Shown here: piece by piece, positions 15,198 through 51,927 of the stretch | Layout: each line of letters starts with the position of its first letter | Position numbering within the stretch: position 1 is the first letter of the stretch | Assembly (NCBI GenBank): GCA_021789695.1 | Contig: JAJYJH010000001.1 | Coordinates: 248,001 to 312,000 of the forward strand | Reading direction: 5' to 3' | DNA: 64,000 nt | DNA from: a bacterium | GTDB taxonomy: Bacteria; Elusimicrobiota; Elusimicrobia; Elusimicrobiales; UBA9959 | Position numbers and translations under genes: made by a program | The notes under the pieces: model-generated | Seen by the model: the letters and a program-made list of their open reading frames with translations, nothing else | What the model was told of the DNA's origin: nothing | Databases searched by the model: none

Positions 15198-16850
15198 ATG
15201 TCGTTTCTCTCCGCGCTCTTCTCCCCGCAGTCGGCGGCCTGGGCCGTCTTCGCCGTGGTGCTGGTCTCCGCCGCCGGCCTGGCGCTCGGCAATGTCAGGT
15301 TCTTTGGTGTGAACCTAGGCATAGCCGGCGTGATGTTTTCGGGTATAATCTGTTCCTACCTCGGCCTTTCGGCGGATCCGGTCATGCTGGGCCTCCTGCG
15401 GGACCTGGGGCTTATCCTGTTCGTCTACTCCATAGGCACCGAAGTGGGTCCCGGTTTCTTCGCCTCGTTCCGCAGCGAGGGTCTGAAACTAAACATGATG
15501 ACCGCGGCCATCGTGCTGTGCGGCGTCGGCCTGACGCTGGTGATAAGCCGCTTCGCCTCTATCCCGATGCCCATGGCCGTCGGCATGTACGCCGGGGCGG
15601 CCACGAATACCCCGGCCCTGGCCGCCGCCCAGCAGACGTTGTCCGGGACCCCGGGAGGCCCGGACATGGCCGCTGTCGGCTGCGCCCTGGCCTATCCCGG
15701 CGGCGTCCTGGGGGTAATCCTGGTCATCCTTCTGCTCAAGCGCATCTTCCGGCGGGAGCTGCGGACGGACCTGGCGAAGGCCCTCCCGTCCGGCCCGGCC
15801 TTAATAAACGCCAGCATCTCGGTGGACAATCGCAACCTGGACGGGCTGCGCATAAGGGATATCCCTGCCCTGCGGGAACTGGGTGTGGTGGTTTCGCGCG
15901 TTTATCACGACGGTAAGTTGTCGATAGCCGGCGCCGAGACCCTTTTGCGAGCCGGGGACATCGTCCTCGCCGTCGGCCTGGAGGAGAACGTAAGGAAGTT
16001 CACTCTGATTGTCGGTTCCAGGAGCGCCACCGATCTTAAGAAACTGCCCAGCCGCATAATCAACTCGCAGGTGATAGTGACACGCGGCGCCGTGATAGGT
16101 AGAACGCTGGAGGAGGTGGACCTGGCCTCCCGCTGCGACGTGGCCGCCACGCGGGTGTCTCGCGCGGGCATGGAGTTCCTGGTGCCGGAGGGTTACACCC
16201 TGCAGTTCGGGGACAATCTGGTGGTGGTAGGCGAGGCCGAGGACGTGTCCCGCGCGGCCGAACTGCTGGGTAATTCCCCGAAGGACCTCGACCAGCCACG
16301 CCTAATCCCGGTCTTTATAGGCATAGGCCTGGGCGTCCTGCTGGGTTCCGTGCCGATACTCGTCCCCGGCCTCGGCGCGCCGGTCAGGCTCGGGCTGGCG
16401 GGCGGTCCGCTCCTCATCGCCATCCTGCTCAGCTGGGCGCAGACCATCGGCCCGCTCAACTGGTATATGCCCCCGCCCGCCAACCTGATGCTGCGGGAGC
16501 TGGGGATAGTCCTGTTCCTCGCCTGCGTCGGCCTGGAGTCGGGCGGCAAGTTCTTCGAGACTATACTGCGCGGCGACGGCCTGCGGCTGATCGCGCTCTC
16601 AGCGGTAATCACGGTCCTGCCGGCGCTGGCGGCGGCCTACGTGTTCAAGAGGCGCTACGGCTTCAATTTTATGGCCCTCTGCGGGGCCCTGACCGGCTCC
16701 ACGACCAATCCTCCGGCCCTGGCCTTCAGCGGCACTATCTCCCAGTCCAGCATGCAGACCATGGCTTACGCGACGGTATACCCGCTTGCCATGATACTGC
16801 GCATAATCTCGGCTCAGGTGATGCTGCTCTTCTTCCTGAGGCACAAGTGA
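15198..16850 (+). CDS. AspT/YidE/YbjL-type transporter with paired TrkA-C domains
   Basis: 550 residues. Two homologous membrane halves (about 1-185 and 370-550, each with the AspT duplication motif; compare GAATNTPALAAAQ and GSTTNPPALAFS) flank a central cytoplasmic region with two TrkA-C-like domains (about 200-365). This is the aspartate:alanine exchanger (AAEx) family, known for acid exchange coupled to proton-motive force. The substrate may be an amino or dicarboxylic acid; it could excrete a fermentation product. It overlaps the AEC-type gene by four bases (GTGA), so the two are translationally coupled. Confidence 0.9.
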   Translation: MSFLSALFSPQSAAWAVFAVVLVSAAGLALGNVRFFGVNLGIAGVMFSGIICSYLGLSADPVMLGLLRDLGLILFVYSIGTEVGPGFFASFRSEGLKLNMMTAAIVLCGVGLTLVISRFASIPMPMAVGMYAGAATNTPALAAAQQTLSGTPGGPDMAAVGCALAYPGGVLGVILVILLLKRIFRRELRTDLAKALPSGPALINASISVDNRNLDGLRIRDIPALRELGVVVSRVYHDGKLSIAGAETLLRAGDIVLAVGLEENVRKFTLIVGSRSATDLKKLPSRIINSQVIVTRGAVIGRTLEEVDLASRCDVAATRVSRAGMEFLVPEGYTLQFGDNLVVVGEAEDVSRAAELLGNSPKDLDQPRLIPVFIGIGLGVLLGSVPILVPGLGAPVRLGLAGGPLLIAILLSWAQTIGPLNWYMPPPANLMLRELGIVLFLACVGLESGGKFFETILRGDGLRLIALSAVITVLPALAAAYVFKRRYGFNFMALCGALTGSTTNPPALAFSGTISQSSMQTMAYATVYPLAMILRIISAQVMLLFFLRHK

Positions 16851-46296: not shown

Positions 46297-47871
46297 TCAG
46301 GCGCTGGCACTATGCAGCTTTTCCAGCTCCTCCCGCTTGAGGCGGGCCGCCGCGCGCGCCTCCTCCATGGTCGTCTCCGCGAAGCGGATGGCTTGATTGG
46401 GGCCGTACTGTGCCAGCAGGTCTATATCGGCCGAGATCACGTTGAAGATACGCGGGTAACCGCCTATGGTCTGCCTGTGCCGCAGCAGGACGATGGGACC
46501 CTCCGGCGTGAGTTGCACGGTGCCGTCCGCCACGGCTCCGGAGACCATGTTACCCATGCCGCAGGAGACCCCCGGGTCTCCGGTCAGGCGTATGCCCATC
46601 TTGTCCATCTTAAAGGTGGTGCGCCACTGGGTAAGAAAAAAGAGGCCCGGCTGGGCCAGGCAGCGGTACTCGGGGCCCGGCAGCACGCGGATGCGGCCGG
46701 CTGGGTCGGTCCAGCCGCTGACGGCGGAGAAAGGCAGGCTTTCCGCCGTGGGGCCGCCGCCGTCGCGGCCGCGGAAACAGAAATAGGTGTACATACCGTA
46801 ACGCCGTGCGCCGAAGGTCAGCCTGTCCCCTGCCCCGGCCTCGTAGACGCGGCTGTGCTCCACATCGGCGGAAGAGCTCCCGCTGTGCAGCGCCGCGTCC
46901 AGCCGGCCGCCGGTCAGCACGAAGCGCCCCGGCCGCAGTATCTCTATCTCCGGCGGTCCGGCTATCTCCAGGGCCGGGCTTTCCTCTGGGTTGCCCAGCA
47001 TCAGGTTGCCGCGCGCCAGGGAAAAAAGGTCCATGGCGCCGCCCGGCGAAACGCCCAGATGCTGCCTGCCGTAGACCGGCGGCCCGGCTGTGCCGCAGAA
47101 GCCGGGCCTGATAAACCGGATATTGCCGCCCACACCGGCTGCGGCCTTTTCCCTTTCAGCGGCGTCCAGCTCCGCGCGCAGCCTGGCGGCCAGCTCCAGC
47201 GCTATCGGCGAGTCGGAATGCACGCAGAGGGTGTCGGCCTTGATCTCCCGCCAGTCCGGCCCGGAAGGGCCCCCGACGTTCACCCGGCCGCGCAGGACCA
47301 GTTCCCGGGCCTGCGCCAGAGCCTCGTTCACGCCGGAGATCACGGCTCCGTCCCCGGAGCGGGCGGCCAGCCGCAGCCGCCCGTCGGCCGGGTCCGCCTC
47401 GTAGCGGCGGTCCGCGAAGGCCTCCCGCAGCACGGCTATGCCGGCCCGGCGCGCCGCCACGGCTATCTCGGAGCCGTCCGGGGCCAGTACGCGGTCTATG
47501 CCGCGGCGCGCCATCCAGCCGGACAGCAGCGAGGCCAGACTCGGGTCCTGCCAGGCGTTGTTATAGAGCGCGCCGTGGAGCTTGGCCATCCTAACTCCGG
47601 GCAGCAGCGCCAGCTGCGCGTCCAGCGCGGCCAGCAGTTCTTCGCCCGGCAGGTCCATGGTGGCGCGTCCAAAATTAGCCTTGTCCGGGTACGAGAGATG
47701 CGCCGACACCGCCACGCCCCGCTCTTCGGCCAGCGCGCGGAAAGCCTTCACGCTTTGGCGGTCGCCCGCGTGGCCCTCGCAGGCCAGGTTGGCTATGTGG
47801 ATGAACTCCATCAGTTTGCGGTCCCCTTCGTGCAGAGGGCCCCGCTCTCCTATGTCGCAGTTTATGAGCAT
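46297..47871 (-). CDS. 5-oxoprolinase: PxpA-PxpC fusion
   Basis: 524 residues. Residues about 1-225 are a PxpA (LamB/YcsF) domain: MLINCDIGE, ANLACEGHAGD, AKLHGALYN. Residues about 255-515 are a PxpC (carboxyltransferase, KipA) domain: RPGFCGTAGPPVYGRQHLGVSPGGAMD, ALEIAGPP, IRLTGDPG. The two normally come as separate proteins with PxpB in the ATP-dependent 5-oxoproline to glutamate enzyme. Fusing A and C fixes their ratio; PxpB is encoded next to it with a one-base overlap. Confidence 0.9.
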   Translation of the reverse strand: MLINCDIGERGPLHEGDRKLMEFIHIANLACEGHAGDRQSVKAFRALAEERGVAVSAHLSYPDKANFGRATMDLPGEELLAALDAQLALLPGVRMAKLHGALYNNAWQDPSLASLLSGWMARRGIDRVLAPDGSEIAVAARRAGIAVLREAFADRRYEADPADGRLRLAARSGDGAVISGVNEALAQARELVLRGRVNVGGPSGPDWREIKADTLCVHSDSPIALELAARLRAELDAAEREKAAAGVGGNIRFIRPGFCGTAGPPVYGRQHLGVSPGGAMDLFSLARGNLMLGNPEESPALEIAGPPEIEILRPGRFVLTGGRLDAALHSGSSSADVEHSRVYEAGAGDRLTFGARRYGMYTYFCFRGRDGGGPTAESLPFSAVSGWTDPAGRIRVLPGPEYRCLAQPGLFFLTQWRTTFKMDKMGIRLTGDPGVSCGMGNMVSGAVADGTVQLTPEGPIVLLRHRQTIGGYPRIFNVISADIDLLAQYGPNQAIRFAETTMEEARAAARLKREELEKLHSASA

Positions 47872-48518
47872 CAGCCCTCCGCCCTCTCGAAGACCACCGA
47901 GTCACCGGGCTCTATGCCGTAGAGCAGTTCCGGCCTGGTCATGCCCAGTATATTCCAGCCGCCGGGAGAGGTCTCCGGGTACACCCCGGTCTGCTCGCCG
48001 CCGATGGCCACGGCGCCGGCGGGCACGGCCAGGCGCGGCGAATCCATCCTCGGCGTGGCCAGCGACGGGTCCAGTCCAAGCAGGTATGGAAAATGCGGCC
48101 GGAAGCCTATCATGGCCACCAGGTATTCCGGGGCCGTGTGGCGGCGGATCACCTCCTCCACGGTGAGCCCGGCGTGCCCGGCCACGCGGGCCAGGTCCTC
48201 GCCCCGGTATACGACCGGCAGCGCGTGCCGTCTGGAGCGCTCGGCCAGGGCCTTTTCGTCGCAAGGGACCCGCTCCAGTGCGGCGGCCACCAGCCGGCGC
48301 ACAGCGTCCCAGTCGCACAAGGGGTCCGCGTGCGCGGCCAGCGCGGTGTAGGAGGGCACCAGGTCGTGCACCCCCAGCCGGGCCAGCTCCGGATTCTCCC
48401 TGAGCCGCCGGTAGACCCAGAGTACCTGCAGCGAGGTCAGGCGGTCTATCTTCCCGCCCAGGCTCCAGCACAGGCAGGCGTCGCCAAGGAAATATGTCTC
48501 GGGAGCGGTCTTGTTCAC
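47871..48518 (-). CDS. pxpB: 5-oxoprolinase subunit PxpB (KipI-like)
   Basis: 215 residues. IGFRPHFPYLLGLDP, GAVAIGGEQTGVYPETSPGGWNILG and the closing EPGDSVVF are the KipI/PxpB family motifs. With PxpA-PxpC it hydrolyses 5-oxoproline to glutamate using ATP. Start is GTG at 48518; TATAAT precedes it by exactly six bases and no ribosome site is seen. It is the first gene of the two-gene unit. Confidence 0.92.
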   Translation of the reverse strand: MNKTAPETYFLGDACLCWSLGGKIDRLTSLQVLWVYRRLRENPELARLGVHDLVPSYTALAAHADPLCDWDAVRRLVAAALERVPCDEKALAERSRRHALPVVYRGEDLARVAGHAGLTVEEVIRRHTAPEYLVAMIGFRPHFPYLLGLDPSLATPRMDSPRLAVPAGAVAIGGEQTGVYPETSPGGWNILGMTRPELLYGIEPGDSVVFERAEG

Positions 48519-48691: not shown

Positions 48692-49681
48692 CTAGTTGCC
48701 GCTGAATTTTCTAAAATCAGAACGGGCCACGTGCGCGGCTTCCACGGGCGGCTCGGAGACAGCACCCGGCTCAAGCTGGCAGTAATACAGCCAGTCCAGC
48801 GCCGCGCCGCCGCGGTCCCCGGAGGCCAGGCGGGACTCGTAGCGGCGGCGGTACGCCTCAGCGTGGCCCGGCTCCAGCGCTATCAGCGCGTCCAGGTCGG
48901 CCAGCTCGCGCCTGTCGTCGCCGGCCTGCAGGTAGGCCAGGCTGCGCCAGTTGTAGGCCTCGGTAAAAGCGGGGTCCAGCCTCAGTGCCTCGGACAGGTC
49001 CTTCACCGCTTTGGCCAGCTGCTCCGCCCCGGCTGGCTTCTCGCCAAGGTAAGAGAGCACCTTGGCGCGCTGCAGATAGTATTCCGGCCCTTCCGGCTCC
49101 AGTTCTATGGCCCTGGAAGCGTCGGTCAGCGCTCCCTCGTAGTCTTCCTGAAGGGTGCGCAGCTGGCTCCTCAAATGATAGGCCACGGGCAGCTCCGCGC
49201 CGGCGGCCAGCAGGCCGTCCAGGACCTCCAGCGCGGCCGGCACGTTCCCCAGCTCGTCGTAAATAGCGGCCTTCCAGCACATAGCTTCGGCGTCTCCCGG
49301 CAGGATCACCAGGCACTTGTCAAAGGCCGCAATGGCGCCGCCCCAGGCGCGCCTGTCCATCAGGATGACGCCCAGGCCGTAATAGGCGTCGGCGTTGGCT
49401 GGGTCCAGCGCCACCGCGCGCAGGGAGTCATCCAGGGCGAGCCCCAATTCGCCGCCGCGGCTGAGGCTCTCAGCCCATTTCGCGTAGGCGTCCTCGTCGA
49501 AAGGCGCGCGCCCGGCTTCCTCGTAGGCTTTAGCCGTGTAAGCCTTGGCCCGCAGGGTGTAAAGCTGTGAATTGTCAGCCCAGGCCGCTATGGCCCTGGT
49601 GTAGTTGGCTATCGCGCGGGCATAGAGCCCTTCGTCGAAGTAGGCCTCGCCGCGCTTGATAATGGTGTCCAGGTCGTTCAT
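48692..49681 (-). CDS. TPR-repeat protein
   Basis: 329 residues, almost wholly TPR repeats (seven or eight units). Typical repeat marks such as YxxLGVxLxxxxxxxxAIAAFDKCL and alternating ALEVLDGLLAAG, ALTDASRAIELEPEGPEY, DLDALIALEPGHAEAY are clear. No signal peptide, so cytoplasmic scaffold. ATG at 49681 has GGAGGGG eight bases upstream; TATACT lies 27 bases before. The frame upstream belongs to a different remnant (next entry). Confidence 0.88.
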   Translation of the reverse strand: MNDLDTIIKRGEAYFDEGLYARAIANYTRAIAAWADNSQLYTLRAKAYTAKAYEEAGRAPFDEDAYAKWAESLSRGGELGLALDDSLRAVALDPANADAYYGLGVILMDRRAWGGAIAAFDKCLVILPGDAEAMCWKAAIYDELGNVPAALEVLDGLLAAGAELPVAYHLRSQLRTLQEDYEGALTDASRAIELEPEGPEYYLQRAKVLSYLGEKPAGAEQLAKAVKDLSEALRLDPAFTEAYNWRSLAYLQAGDDRRELADLDALIALEPGHAEAYRRRYESRLASGDRGGAALDWLYYCQLEPGAVSEPPVEAAHVARSDFRKFSGN

Positions 49682-49744
49682 TTGGCACGCCCCTCCGGCG
49701 TAGCATATAGTATACCCGATTGAGCGGCTCTCGGATATCAGGTC

Positions 49745-49891
49745 AGGCGCGGCCCCCTGCGCGCCCTTTACGCCTTCCGGGTGGCTGTGTGTCACGGCGG
49801 CGCTGGTCTCGGTCTCAGATAGCACCTCTTCCAGGCTGTCGAAGGCGTAGGCCACCGGTCTCACCTGCATGACCAAGCTGTTACCACTGGG
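49745..49891 (-). pseudogene. Remnant of an ADP-ribosylglycohydrolase gene
   Basis: In frame upstream of the TPR gene, about 49 codons read GNSLVMQVRPVAYAFDSLEE, then THSHPEGVKGAQ. This is the well-conserved block of the ADP-ribosylglycohydrolase family (GNGSAMRVSPVGFAFDSLEE... THNHPEGIKGAQAT). Nothing of the N- or C-terminal domains is present on either side, so it is a broken piece of a lost gene. Confidence 0.6.
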
Positions 49892-49922
49892 GCTATTTTT
49901 AAAAATCAGAGCCGCTGGTGAA

Positions 49923-50942
49923 TCAGGTCGAGAATTTCCAGAAGTGGGCCACGTCCATATCGGCGGGGCAGTCATCGCCGTGAATGCCTTTGCCGGTGGC
50001 CGGGTCCGTGTGAGCCCCATGGTCAGGGGCGAAGAGCGCCGCGCGCGGCACTCCGGACCATTTCCGGTCGAAGGCCTCCGCCAGCCTCAGGAAGGCATCC
50101 GCGTGCCGTCGCACGGCGGCTACGGCCCCGTCCTTCCACGGGCCGACGGCGTGCAGTAGGTCGTCGTACTCCTGGTGATAAACCAGGATAAAGTCGTGCC
50201 CGCCGTTCTCTATCAGTTCCAGTGCGCTGGCGGTCACCTGCTGATCGCACTCCCCAGAGAAGTAGTCTACCGGGCGGCCGCGGAAGATTAGGTCTATACT
50301 GCTGCCCTTCACTGCGGCTATGGCGGTCTTTACGCCGCCGGCGGGCAGCGCGTCGAAAAGAGTTTTGCAGCCGAGCGCTGGCTTCTCGTATTGCGCGATG
50401 CCGTGGCCGGCCGGCGGCAGGCCGGTGAACATGGAAGCGTAGCATACCGGAGTTTTTGACGGGAACACGCTGCGCACATCAACGCGCGTGAAGCCGGCTG
50501 AAAAAAAATTCTCAAAGAGCTCCGCGTGTAGCGTTACCATCCGCCGCCCTATGGCGTCCGGCGCGTACACCAGCACCTTCTTTACCCCGCCGGCCGGGAG
50601 CAGCTTCAGCGCGCGGGCGTCCGGCGCGGCGGCGCTCGGTTCCAGCCCGCCGGCTACGCCCATGGCCGCCAGCAGGGTAGCCGCCACCGAGGTTATGCAC
50701 GCCTCGGGAGCCGCCGGAGCGCGTCGCGGTAGCTCGCGCAAGTACATGGCTTCTATTTTCCTGCGCGCCCAGGGCGTTTTGCGCAGGAAGGCAAGGCTCG
50801 ACTTCACCGACGGCTCGTAAAGAAAGCACCTCGCCGGTACGCGCTGTCCCAGCCCCGCCCAGCCGTGCCGCTTCACCAGCGCGTTAAGAATCTCCTCCAG
50901 GGTAATACCGTGCAGAGGGTCGCGAACGTTAGTGTCTGGCAT
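49923..50942 (-). CDS. VF530 domain fused to a phosphodiesterase/alkaline phosphatase-like domain
   Basis: 339 residues. Residues 8-70 match the VF530 (DUF2132) DNA-binding family: LHGITLEEILNALVKRHGW, then RCFLYEPSVKSSLAFLRKTPWAR. After a linker, residues about 118-335 form an alkaline-phosphatase-superfamily domain: VYAPDAIG, SVFPSKTPVCYASMFTGLPPAGHG, VYHQEYDDLLHAVGP, APDHGAHTD. Both domains are normally separate. The start ATG is exactly six bases after TAGAAT on the minus strand. Confidence 0.82.
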   Translation of the reverse strand: MPDTNVRDPLHGITLEEILNALVKRHGWAGLGQRVPARCFLYEPSVKSSLAFLRKTPWARRKIEAMYLRELPRRAPAAPEACITSVAATLLAAMGVAGGLEPSAAAPDARALKLLPAGGVKKVLVYAPDAIGRRMVTLHAELFENFFSAGFTRVDVRSVFPSKTPVCYASMFTGLPPAGHGIAQYEKPALGCKTLFDALPAGGVKTAIAAVKGSSIDLIFRGRPVDYFSGECDQQVTASALELIENGGHDFILVYHQEYDDLLHAVGPWKDGAVAAVRRHADAFLRLAEAFDRKWSGVPRAALFAPDHGAHTDPATGKGIHGDDCPADMDVAHFWKFST

Positions 50943-50954: not shown

Positions 50955-51033
50955 CTATTATTTACGCGGACAACTAATAAGCGGCGGTCAAGACGCACGT
51001 ATTTTTTTGCTTGCGCCGGAGGGCTAGACAAGA

Positions 51034-51039
51034 TAGACT
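51034..51039 (+). promoter_or_regulatory. Possible leaderless-type -10 element (TAGACT)
   Basis: TAGACT followed by six bases (ATCCCG) and the ATG at 51046. Weaker match, same spacing as the others. Confidence 0.4.
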
Positions 51040-51045
51040 ATCCCG

Positions 51046-51927
51046 ATGATTACCCTGCCTCCGATACGCTGTCCCGGCTGCGGCCGCATGATGCCGCAGG
51101 TCAAAGCCCGCGAAGTTCCCCAGGCCAACACCTACCGCGACTGCCTGCGCCACTGCACCCACTGCCGCATCGGCGCCACCAACGCCAAGAACAGCTCTAA
51201 AGTTAAGTTCATCCACGCTGGCACGCGGCCAGGCGAGACCTCCGCTGCCGCGGCGCCGACGGAACAGCCGAAGGAAAGGCCGCATAACCAACTGCAGGAA
51301 ACGCAGGCCGCGCGAGCGGAGACCATTATCCCGGAGCAGCCCATTAAAGCTGTTCTTCCGGAACAGCCAATCAAAGCTGCAGCCGCGCCTGAGCCCGCTG
51401 ACCAGCCCGGCCCAGAATCGCAGCCGTCTCCCGCGCCAGCCGCACCCCCGGCAGAACCGCGCCAGCCGCCCCCGGTCGCGGGGATACCCCAGCGACCGCG
51501 CTATAATGAACCGCGCGGCGGCAGGCAGTACGACCGCCCAAACCCGCGCAGGTTCGGTGAACAACGCGGGGATGATAGCCGCGGCGGGCGCCCCGGCGTC
51601 CATTTCGGCGCGCCAAAACAGGACAGCCACCCGCGCCCCGACCATCCCGCCAAGCATTACGGGCCGCCCAGGCGCGACTCGCGTTACGGCGATGGCCGAC
51701 CCCGGAAACATTACGGTCCCCCACCACGCGACGCCGGCTCCCGCGAGGAGGGCCCCAACAGGCACTTCGGCCCCCCCCAGTACCGCGACGAGCGCCGCCC
51801 AGGCGATGACCGCCCGTGGCAGTCGCGCAGCGGCAAGCCCTACGGCAGGCCGGGGCCCCGCAAATTCGGGCACGACCGCCGCGGCCCCGGTGACCACCGA
51901 AGCCCGCAACGTCCCCGTAAGGACTGA
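51046..51927 (+). CDS. Zinc-ribbon protein with long disordered Arg/Pro/Gly tail
   Basis: 293 residues. The N-terminal 60 hold a zinc-ribbon-like Cys set (CPGCGR ... CTHCRIG). From about residue 65 the chain is low complexity: first Ala/Pro/Gln/Glu, then repeated basic units such as KHYGPPRRDSRYGDGRP and KHYGPPPRDAGSREE. This tail resembles RGG/RPP RNA-binding or phase-separating regions. The composition on the opposite strand would give a less sensible protein. No named family recognised. Confidence 0.7.
   Translation: MITLPPIRCPGCGRMMPQVKAREVPQANTYRDCLRHCTHCRIGATNAKNSSKVKFIHAGTRPGETSAAAAPTEQPKERPHNQLQETQAARAETIIPEQPIKAVLPEQPIKAAAAPEPADQPGPESQPSPAPAAPPAEPRQPPPVAGIPQRPRYNEPRGGRQYDRPNPRRFGEQRGDDSRGGRPGVHFGAPKQDSHPRPDHPAKHYGPPRRDSRYGDGRPRKHYGPPPRDAGSREEGPNRHFGPPQYRDERRPGDDRPWQSRSGKPYGRPGPRKFGHDRRGPGDHRSPQRPRKD

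Follow-up and report, generated by a model that had tools for sequence, protein, structure and literature searches.

The open reading frame (ORF) that starts with the ATG at 51046 and ends with the TGA at 51925–51927 of the window is a genuine gene. By the window we mean the whole 64,000-nucleotide stretch analysed, which comes from an Elusimicrobiota MAG. Judged from sequence comparison, the gene product belongs to a small, apparently genus-restricted family of basic proteins with a zinc-ribbon-like core. In this species and its sister the core carries a long basic tail built on an 18-residue repeat, and this tail is best explained as a lineage-specific feature that was gained once. Our tentative reading, to which we give somewhat less than an even chance, is that the core docks on a conserved partner while the tail acts as a multivalent RNA binder of low specificity.

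Layout of the gene and its product

The product consists of a 58-residue core, a 92-residue linker and a 143-residue tail (Table 1). The initial annotation had described a 200-residue basic tail. A basic tail is indeed present, but it is confined to the last 143 residues, and the linker before it is not basic. The tail contains 30 Arg, 8 His, 12 aromatic and 19 acidic residues; that of the sister has 260 residues, among them 63 Arg and 18 aromatic ones, and a net charge of +37. In a full-length model computed with a 23-sequence alignment, pLDDT was 92–97 for residues 1–60 and 43–68 beyond (blocks of ten), with no secondary structure beyond residue 60. The core modelled alone reached a pLDDT of 80. 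The protein is thus predicted to combine a folded, Cys-rich core with a disordered tail of Arg-rich repeats, which supports this part of the initial annotation.

Table 1. Features of the gene and its surroundings (positions in the window).
Feature	Position	Strand	Basis
Whole gene, 293-aa ORF	51046..51927	+	dN/dS and controls
Zinc-ribbon-like core, residues 1–58, five invariant Cys, net +8	51046..51219	+	Homologue search, alignment, predicted fold
Linker rich in Pro/Ala/Glu/Gln, residues 59–150, net −3	51220..51495	+	Low pLDDT
Basic Arg/Pro/Gly/Tyr/His tail, residues 151–293, net +17	51496..51924	+	Composition, pLDDT, dN/dS
Four 18-residue (54-base) units, at residues 183, 201, 219 and 237	51592..51807	+	Repeat analysis
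TTGCGC, −35-like, separated from the −10-like box by 17 bases	51011..51016	+	Sequence; TTGCGT at the matching position in the sister
TAGACT, −10-like, separated from the ATG by six bases	51034..51039	+	Sequence; spacing enriched in window and genus
Overlapping minus-strand ORF, rejected as a gene	50974..51909	−	Stops in each frame of this strand in the sister

At 0.755, the third-position GC of the ORF is lower than in all seven neighbours measured (0.776–0.869) and close to the 0.718 of the antisense ORF, which leaves the strand undecided on composition. It is decided by comparison with relatives: the antisense ORF is not conserved, and every minus-strand frame over the sister gene contains stops.

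Distribution of the core family

The initial annotation had made its reading hinge in part on the zinc ribbon having homologues, and these were found. The first 65 residues matched 25 of 101 near genomes, all from the same genus and amounting to 25 of its 32 genomes; the other seven are draft assemblies, in which loss is indistinguishable from an assembly gap. Two near-identical sequences were omitted from the 25, and a profile built from the remaining 23 was run at E 0.01 against 340 phylum genomes, of which it matched 29. These were the same 25 together with four weak partial matches in another family of the order (E 0.002–0.004), which we left uncounted, and no convincing match outside the genus was seen among the 340. 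A scan of GTDB contigs for exact peptide patterns, which leaves room for distant relatives elsewhere, returned 13 contigs, 11 of them titled Elusimicrobia or Elusimicrobiales and the other two "bacterium". No relative was found in viral contigs, phages or plasmids that would point to a mobile or phage origin. Among the papers listed by literature searches on Elusimicrobia zinc ribbons, disordered proteins and Arg-rich or RGG tails, none describes the core family; the search on zinc ribbons led to PMC7448276, on Ruc.

The alignment of the 23 members has 20 invariant columns. Five of these are Cys (C9, C12, C33, C37 and C40; CxxC, 20 residues, CxxxCxxC), and R35, K48 and K52 are invariant as well. 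The core carries a net charge of +6 to +12 in every aligned member. The zinc-ribbon-like Cys set noted earlier therefore stands as part of a Cys-rich core that is predicted to fold, with the correction that five Cys are invariant and not four. Binding of zinc is suggested by the Cys pattern.

None of the libraries gives the core a convincing family. Against the 23 members, the best E was 0.0033 in Pfam (among the best 25 of 63 families), 0.0037 in NCBIfam, where the DVU_1557 redox family appeared in 14 of the 23 (best 0.0043), and 0.00053 in PHROGs, where phrog_5624, of no known function, appeared in 12 of the 23 (among the best 25 of 43). We take these matches as weak because they involve short Cys-rich proteins and are spread over many zinc-ribbon families. 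A PDB search returned two C2H2 zinc-finger chains (E 1.2e-07 and 1e-4), which we rejected because each E adds up repeated short matches, no single one of which passes.

The model of the core shows short strands along with the Cys pattern, and its matches to zinc ribbons are weak. Fold searches yielded no convincing structural match. Ranked first were the LysW/ArgW amino-group carrier zinc ribbons 3wwn_B (Z 2.4, rmsd 3.1, 51 aligned) and 3vpb_E (Z 2.4, rmsd 3.2, 49 aligned), with 5eio_C found by Foldseek (E 2.3–3.3). With overall scores of Z 2.0–2.4 and Foldseek E 2.3–9.7, the LysW-type matches are too weak for a claim of kinship, and the window core differs in being basic.

Long and short tails across the genus

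With length counted from the aligned Met, the range is 62–112 residues for 23 of the 25 copies. The two long ones are the window copy (293) and that of genome G007 (428), which we refer to as the sister; locus L028 falls within a G007 contig and hence belongs to the same genome. In a midpoint-rooted tree of five ribosomal proteins from 30 of the 32 genus genomes, the two genomes with long tails group as sisters (support 0.999), G017 (112 aa) stands next to the pair (0.992) and G029 (77 aa) falls in the wider clade (0.973). The short tails are mostly acidic and Pro-rich, 18 of the 21 aligned being net negative, one neutral and two +1, as against +14 (window) and +30 (sister) for the long tails in this comparison.

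Searching the 32 genus genomes with the tail recovered the window genome and its sister, with no other copy; as none was found in these genomes, we rejected the idea that the tail was borrowed from another gene. A weak match on contig 14 of the window's own genome (E 0.01) overlaps a long frame that looks like an alcohol dehydrogenase from its translation, and was dropped. DNA sites encoding H[YF]GPP occur in 30 of the 32 genomes. Three of seven in the window genome and five of nine in the sister lie within the gene, and among the listed pairs no others are close enough for an array. The earlier statement that such tails are rare in bacteria was checked within the phylum and for this particular tail: the sister's tail matched one of 247 genomes drawn, which was the window's own.

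The 18-residue repeat

The tail is organised around an 18-residue unit of the [KR]H[YF]GPP type, four copies of which are exactly 18 residues apart. The motif [YF]GxP occurs five times in the window tail (0.31 expected from residue shuffles) and 11 times in the sister tail (0.66 expected), counts reached in 0 of 5000 shuffles in either species. The repeated Arg/Pro/Gly/Tyr units (KHYGPP) of the initial annotation are thus well beyond chance. Its RGG label did not hold, as there is no clear enrichment of RGG, which occurs twice in the window tail (0.66 expected) and once in the sister tail (1.99 expected). On the whole, its observation was right, and its interpretation is partly supported.

Ten units from both species were picked by [YF]G[PA]P, and conservation was judged on residues outside this motif. 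P1 and H4 are kept in nine of the ten, R10 and D11 in eight. The His is present in all four units of the window gene and in five of six in the sister, in runs of exact 18-residue spacing. No tandem DNA array of the repeat period scoring at least 30 was found in either gene; the repeat copies are diverged at the DNA level. Silent changes among the [YF]GPP codons are no proof of selection, since the copies were chosen by that very motif.

Coding status and selection on the tail

The reading frame stays open over 293 codons in the window and 428 in the sister. Protein-guided comparison of the two gave a dN/dS of 0.12 for the core, 0.35 for the linker and 0.27 for the tail, and the tail changes fell on codon positions 1, 2 and 3 in numbers of 22, 34 and 64. 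By the same method two neighbouring genes gave 0.24 and 0.25, the latter for the TPR neighbour. When the tail was treated alone, dN/dS was 0.26 in the true frame and 0.40–0.83 in the five wrong frames.

Alignment choice pulls dN/dS down in repetitive sequence, as seen with codon-shuffled tails: 30 shuffled sister tails gave 0.27–0.71, so the observed 0.26 lies barely under the lowest. Residue identity of the tails was 0.67 against a mean of 0.50 for shuffled ones, and one reverse frame also reached 0.67. A DNA-only alignment of the tail carried a weak signal, with 37, 44 and 53 mismatches at the three codon positions (339 of 416 columns in the same frame) and gap lengths in multiples of three in six of eight cases. 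From these comparisons we regard it as well supported that the gene is coding, tail included, and as moderately supported that selection acts on the tail.

It is because of the codon-shuffle control that one alternative stays alive, namely that the tail is a low-complexity expansion which is tolerated and contributes little by itself, the function residing in the core as it does in the 23 short members. Such growth would fit a tail that is present in just two of 25 members and differs in length between sisters, and shuffles come close to the observed dN/dS. It would not readily account for [YF]GxP counts above every shuffle in each species, for the His kept in nine of ten units, or for an in-frame dN/dS under that of all five other frames, and we consider it rather unlikely.

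Promoter-like sequence and a predicted leaderless mRNA

Upstream of the gene lie, in order, TTGCGC, 17 bases, TAGACT, six bases and the ATG. Transcription of this strand was the other point on which the initial annotation depended, and the strand carries a promoter-like site as a predicted signal for it. With the −10-like box only six bases before the ATG, transcription would start at the A of the ATG, which predicts a leaderless mRNA. Of the 25 copies, 15 have T at −12, 19 have A at −11 and 20 have T at −7. Two loci (L016 and L017) have the box further upstream, followed by six bases and an in-frame upstream ATG, and two others (L010 and L014) have a distant box and AGGAG instead.

The spacing is not peculiar to this gene. 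In the window, TA[AGT]ANT precedes an ATG by six bases seven times, compared with 0–3 times at each of 18 other spacings, and in 13 genus loci 23 times, compared with 3–10. Over whole genomes TA[GT]AAT-N6-ATG outnumbers TA[GT]AAT-N9-ATG in 32 of 32 genus genomes; the window genome has 56 and 15, respectively, and reversed-pattern controls gave 5 and 10. Examples in the window are the starts at 15198 (+), 45930 (+), 50942 (−), 45171 (−) and 53556 (−). The pattern predicts that leaderless mRNAs are widespread in these Elusimicrobiota. Elusimicrobiota are listed with a Shine-Dalgarno type of 16S end in the available excerpt of PMC10783764.

Genomic neighbourhood

The upstream neighbour is divergent and the downstream one, a 5′-nucleotidase gene, convergent. 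The former (49923–50942, −) is a single ORF that fuses a VF530 domain (PF09905, E 5.6e-28) to a type I phosphodiesterase (PF01663, E 5.7e-13). The same fusion is found in the sister, and a literature search on VF530 returned no paper. Further along, the TPR ORF (48692–50020, −) begins with a fragment of an ADP-ribosylglycohydrolase (profile positions 110–165 of 287), whereas in the sister this family is represented by a gene of its own, 269 aa long (L028:4026–4835); the gene looks decayed in the window genome. A single ORF (46297–47871, −) fuses LamB/YcsF to carboxyltransferase A/B domains, and next to it lies a carboxyltransferase C/D gene (47871–48518). This cluster, presumably of the 5-oxoprolinase type, lies within the ~6-kb flanks in eight of 14 loci compared. 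Neighbours in the 13 other loci were clustered, mostly without names being assigned. The Pfam scan of the window neighbours recognised no RNA-related gene and no chaperone gene.

Comparison with known systems

A small zinc-ribbon-like protein with a disordered tail is already known, and the basic tail of 18-residue repeats is a variant on that plan. The closest working analogue is Ruc (Rv0991c) with the FmdB proteins (PF09723, TIGR02605), in which, according to the consulted portion of PMC7448276, the N terminus forms a small, Cys-rich domain resembling a zinc ribbon and the rest is a variable, disordered tail. The disordered hydrophilic C-terminal tail of these proteins has its counterpart in the low predicted pLDDT past residue 60. 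By the same portion, the four Cys of Ruc are at 8, 11, 29 and 32 (CxxC, 17 residues, CxxC), as opposed to five with other spacing in the window family, and Ruc-type tails measure ~7–61 residues, against up to 371 here. We reject membership in Ruc/FmdB on the profile match and the Cys spacing. Searching the window genome with PF09723 (E 1e-4) and TIGR02605 (1e-3) did not find the gene, and hhalign of FmdB against the core family gave an out-of-register alignment of 11 columns with a probability of 13% (E 0.0021).

By its layout, a redox-regulated chaperone like Ruc is a serious rival to RNA binding: Cys oxidation would release zinc and free the disordered tail to hold unfolded proteins. The layout is that of Ruc, whose chaperone activity needs the disordered tail, as stated in the part of PMC7448276 drawn on here, where the linkage of Ruc to chaperone genes is described as partial. 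Of 149 phylum genomes, 62 (e.g. L088–L116) have FmdB-type proteins above the PF09723 cut-off, and none of the 62 comes from the window's own taxonomic family, so that a functional stand-in is thinkable. Many of these phylum proteins have additional Cys and a tail in which Ser, Cys and His abound. The FmdB profile (TIGR02605) appears in just two of the 23 members (best E 0.11), the first Cys pair of the core aligns to the second of FmdB, and the Cys spacing and the lack of a recognised chaperone gene among the neighbours scanned also speak against this mechanism. We judge it unlikely.

Hfq offers a second likeness, as a basic RNA-binding core tuned by a disordered tail (PMC5606850, in the extract used), since in the short members, too, a basic core is followed by a tail that is mostly acidic. 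The cores are unrelated, and acidic autoregulation in the window family would be an analogy alone. With eukaryotic RGG/RG RNA-binding tails the window tail shares disorder and richness in Arg, Gly and aromatic residues; it differs in lacking clear RGG enrichment and in its 18-residue period. A literature search on RGG tails in disordered bacterial zinc-ribbon proteins found no paper.

Proposed function

In the reading that we tentatively prefer, the zinc-ribbon-like core would dock on a single conserved partner, for which RNA or a ribonucleoprotein is the likeliest candidate. In most species it would do so with a short Pro-rich, usually acidic tail; as 23 of 25 members have no long tail, the basic role of the family needs none. 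In the lineage of the window and its sister, the tail would have become a mildly acidic linker followed by copies of the 18-residue Arg/His/Tyr/Pro unit. Each unit would supply several Arg and one aromatic residue, giving a flexible, multivalent binder of RNA with low specificity that may concentrate the core on its target or bridge RNAs. We infer RNA as the likeliest ligand from charge and composition. Basic cores, the Arg- and aromatic-rich tail, the lowest dN/dS in frame and the kept His, R10 and D11 are consistent with this, and condensates of Arg/aromatic repeat chains with RNA are the subject of PMC8595643, as far as its excerpt goes. The many members that do without the long tail, the 19 acidic residues in the tail, the lack of a recognised RNA-related neighbour in the window, a dN/dS barely below the codon-shuffle minimum and the weak DNA-only codon-position signal count against it. 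That the evenly spaced His-[Tyr/Phe]-Gly-Pro-Pro units bind metal or protein instead of RNA would suit the regularly retained His, but Arg is far commoner (30 against 8 His) and no partner is known, which makes such scaffolding very unlikely.

Going further, an acidic-tailed zinc-ribbon protein could have been turned into an RNA scaffold by a charge-reversing repeat tail, a recent bacterial origin of a eukaryotic-type condensate-forming tail with the short ancestral form persisting in close relatives. We think this quite unlikely.

Since close relatives share the core, some with and some without the tail, nature supplies the comparison needed to test what the tail does. Should it bind RNA and form condensates, it would be a placed example of such tails arising in bacteria; otherwise it would serve as a warning against inferring RNA function from Arg-rich composition.
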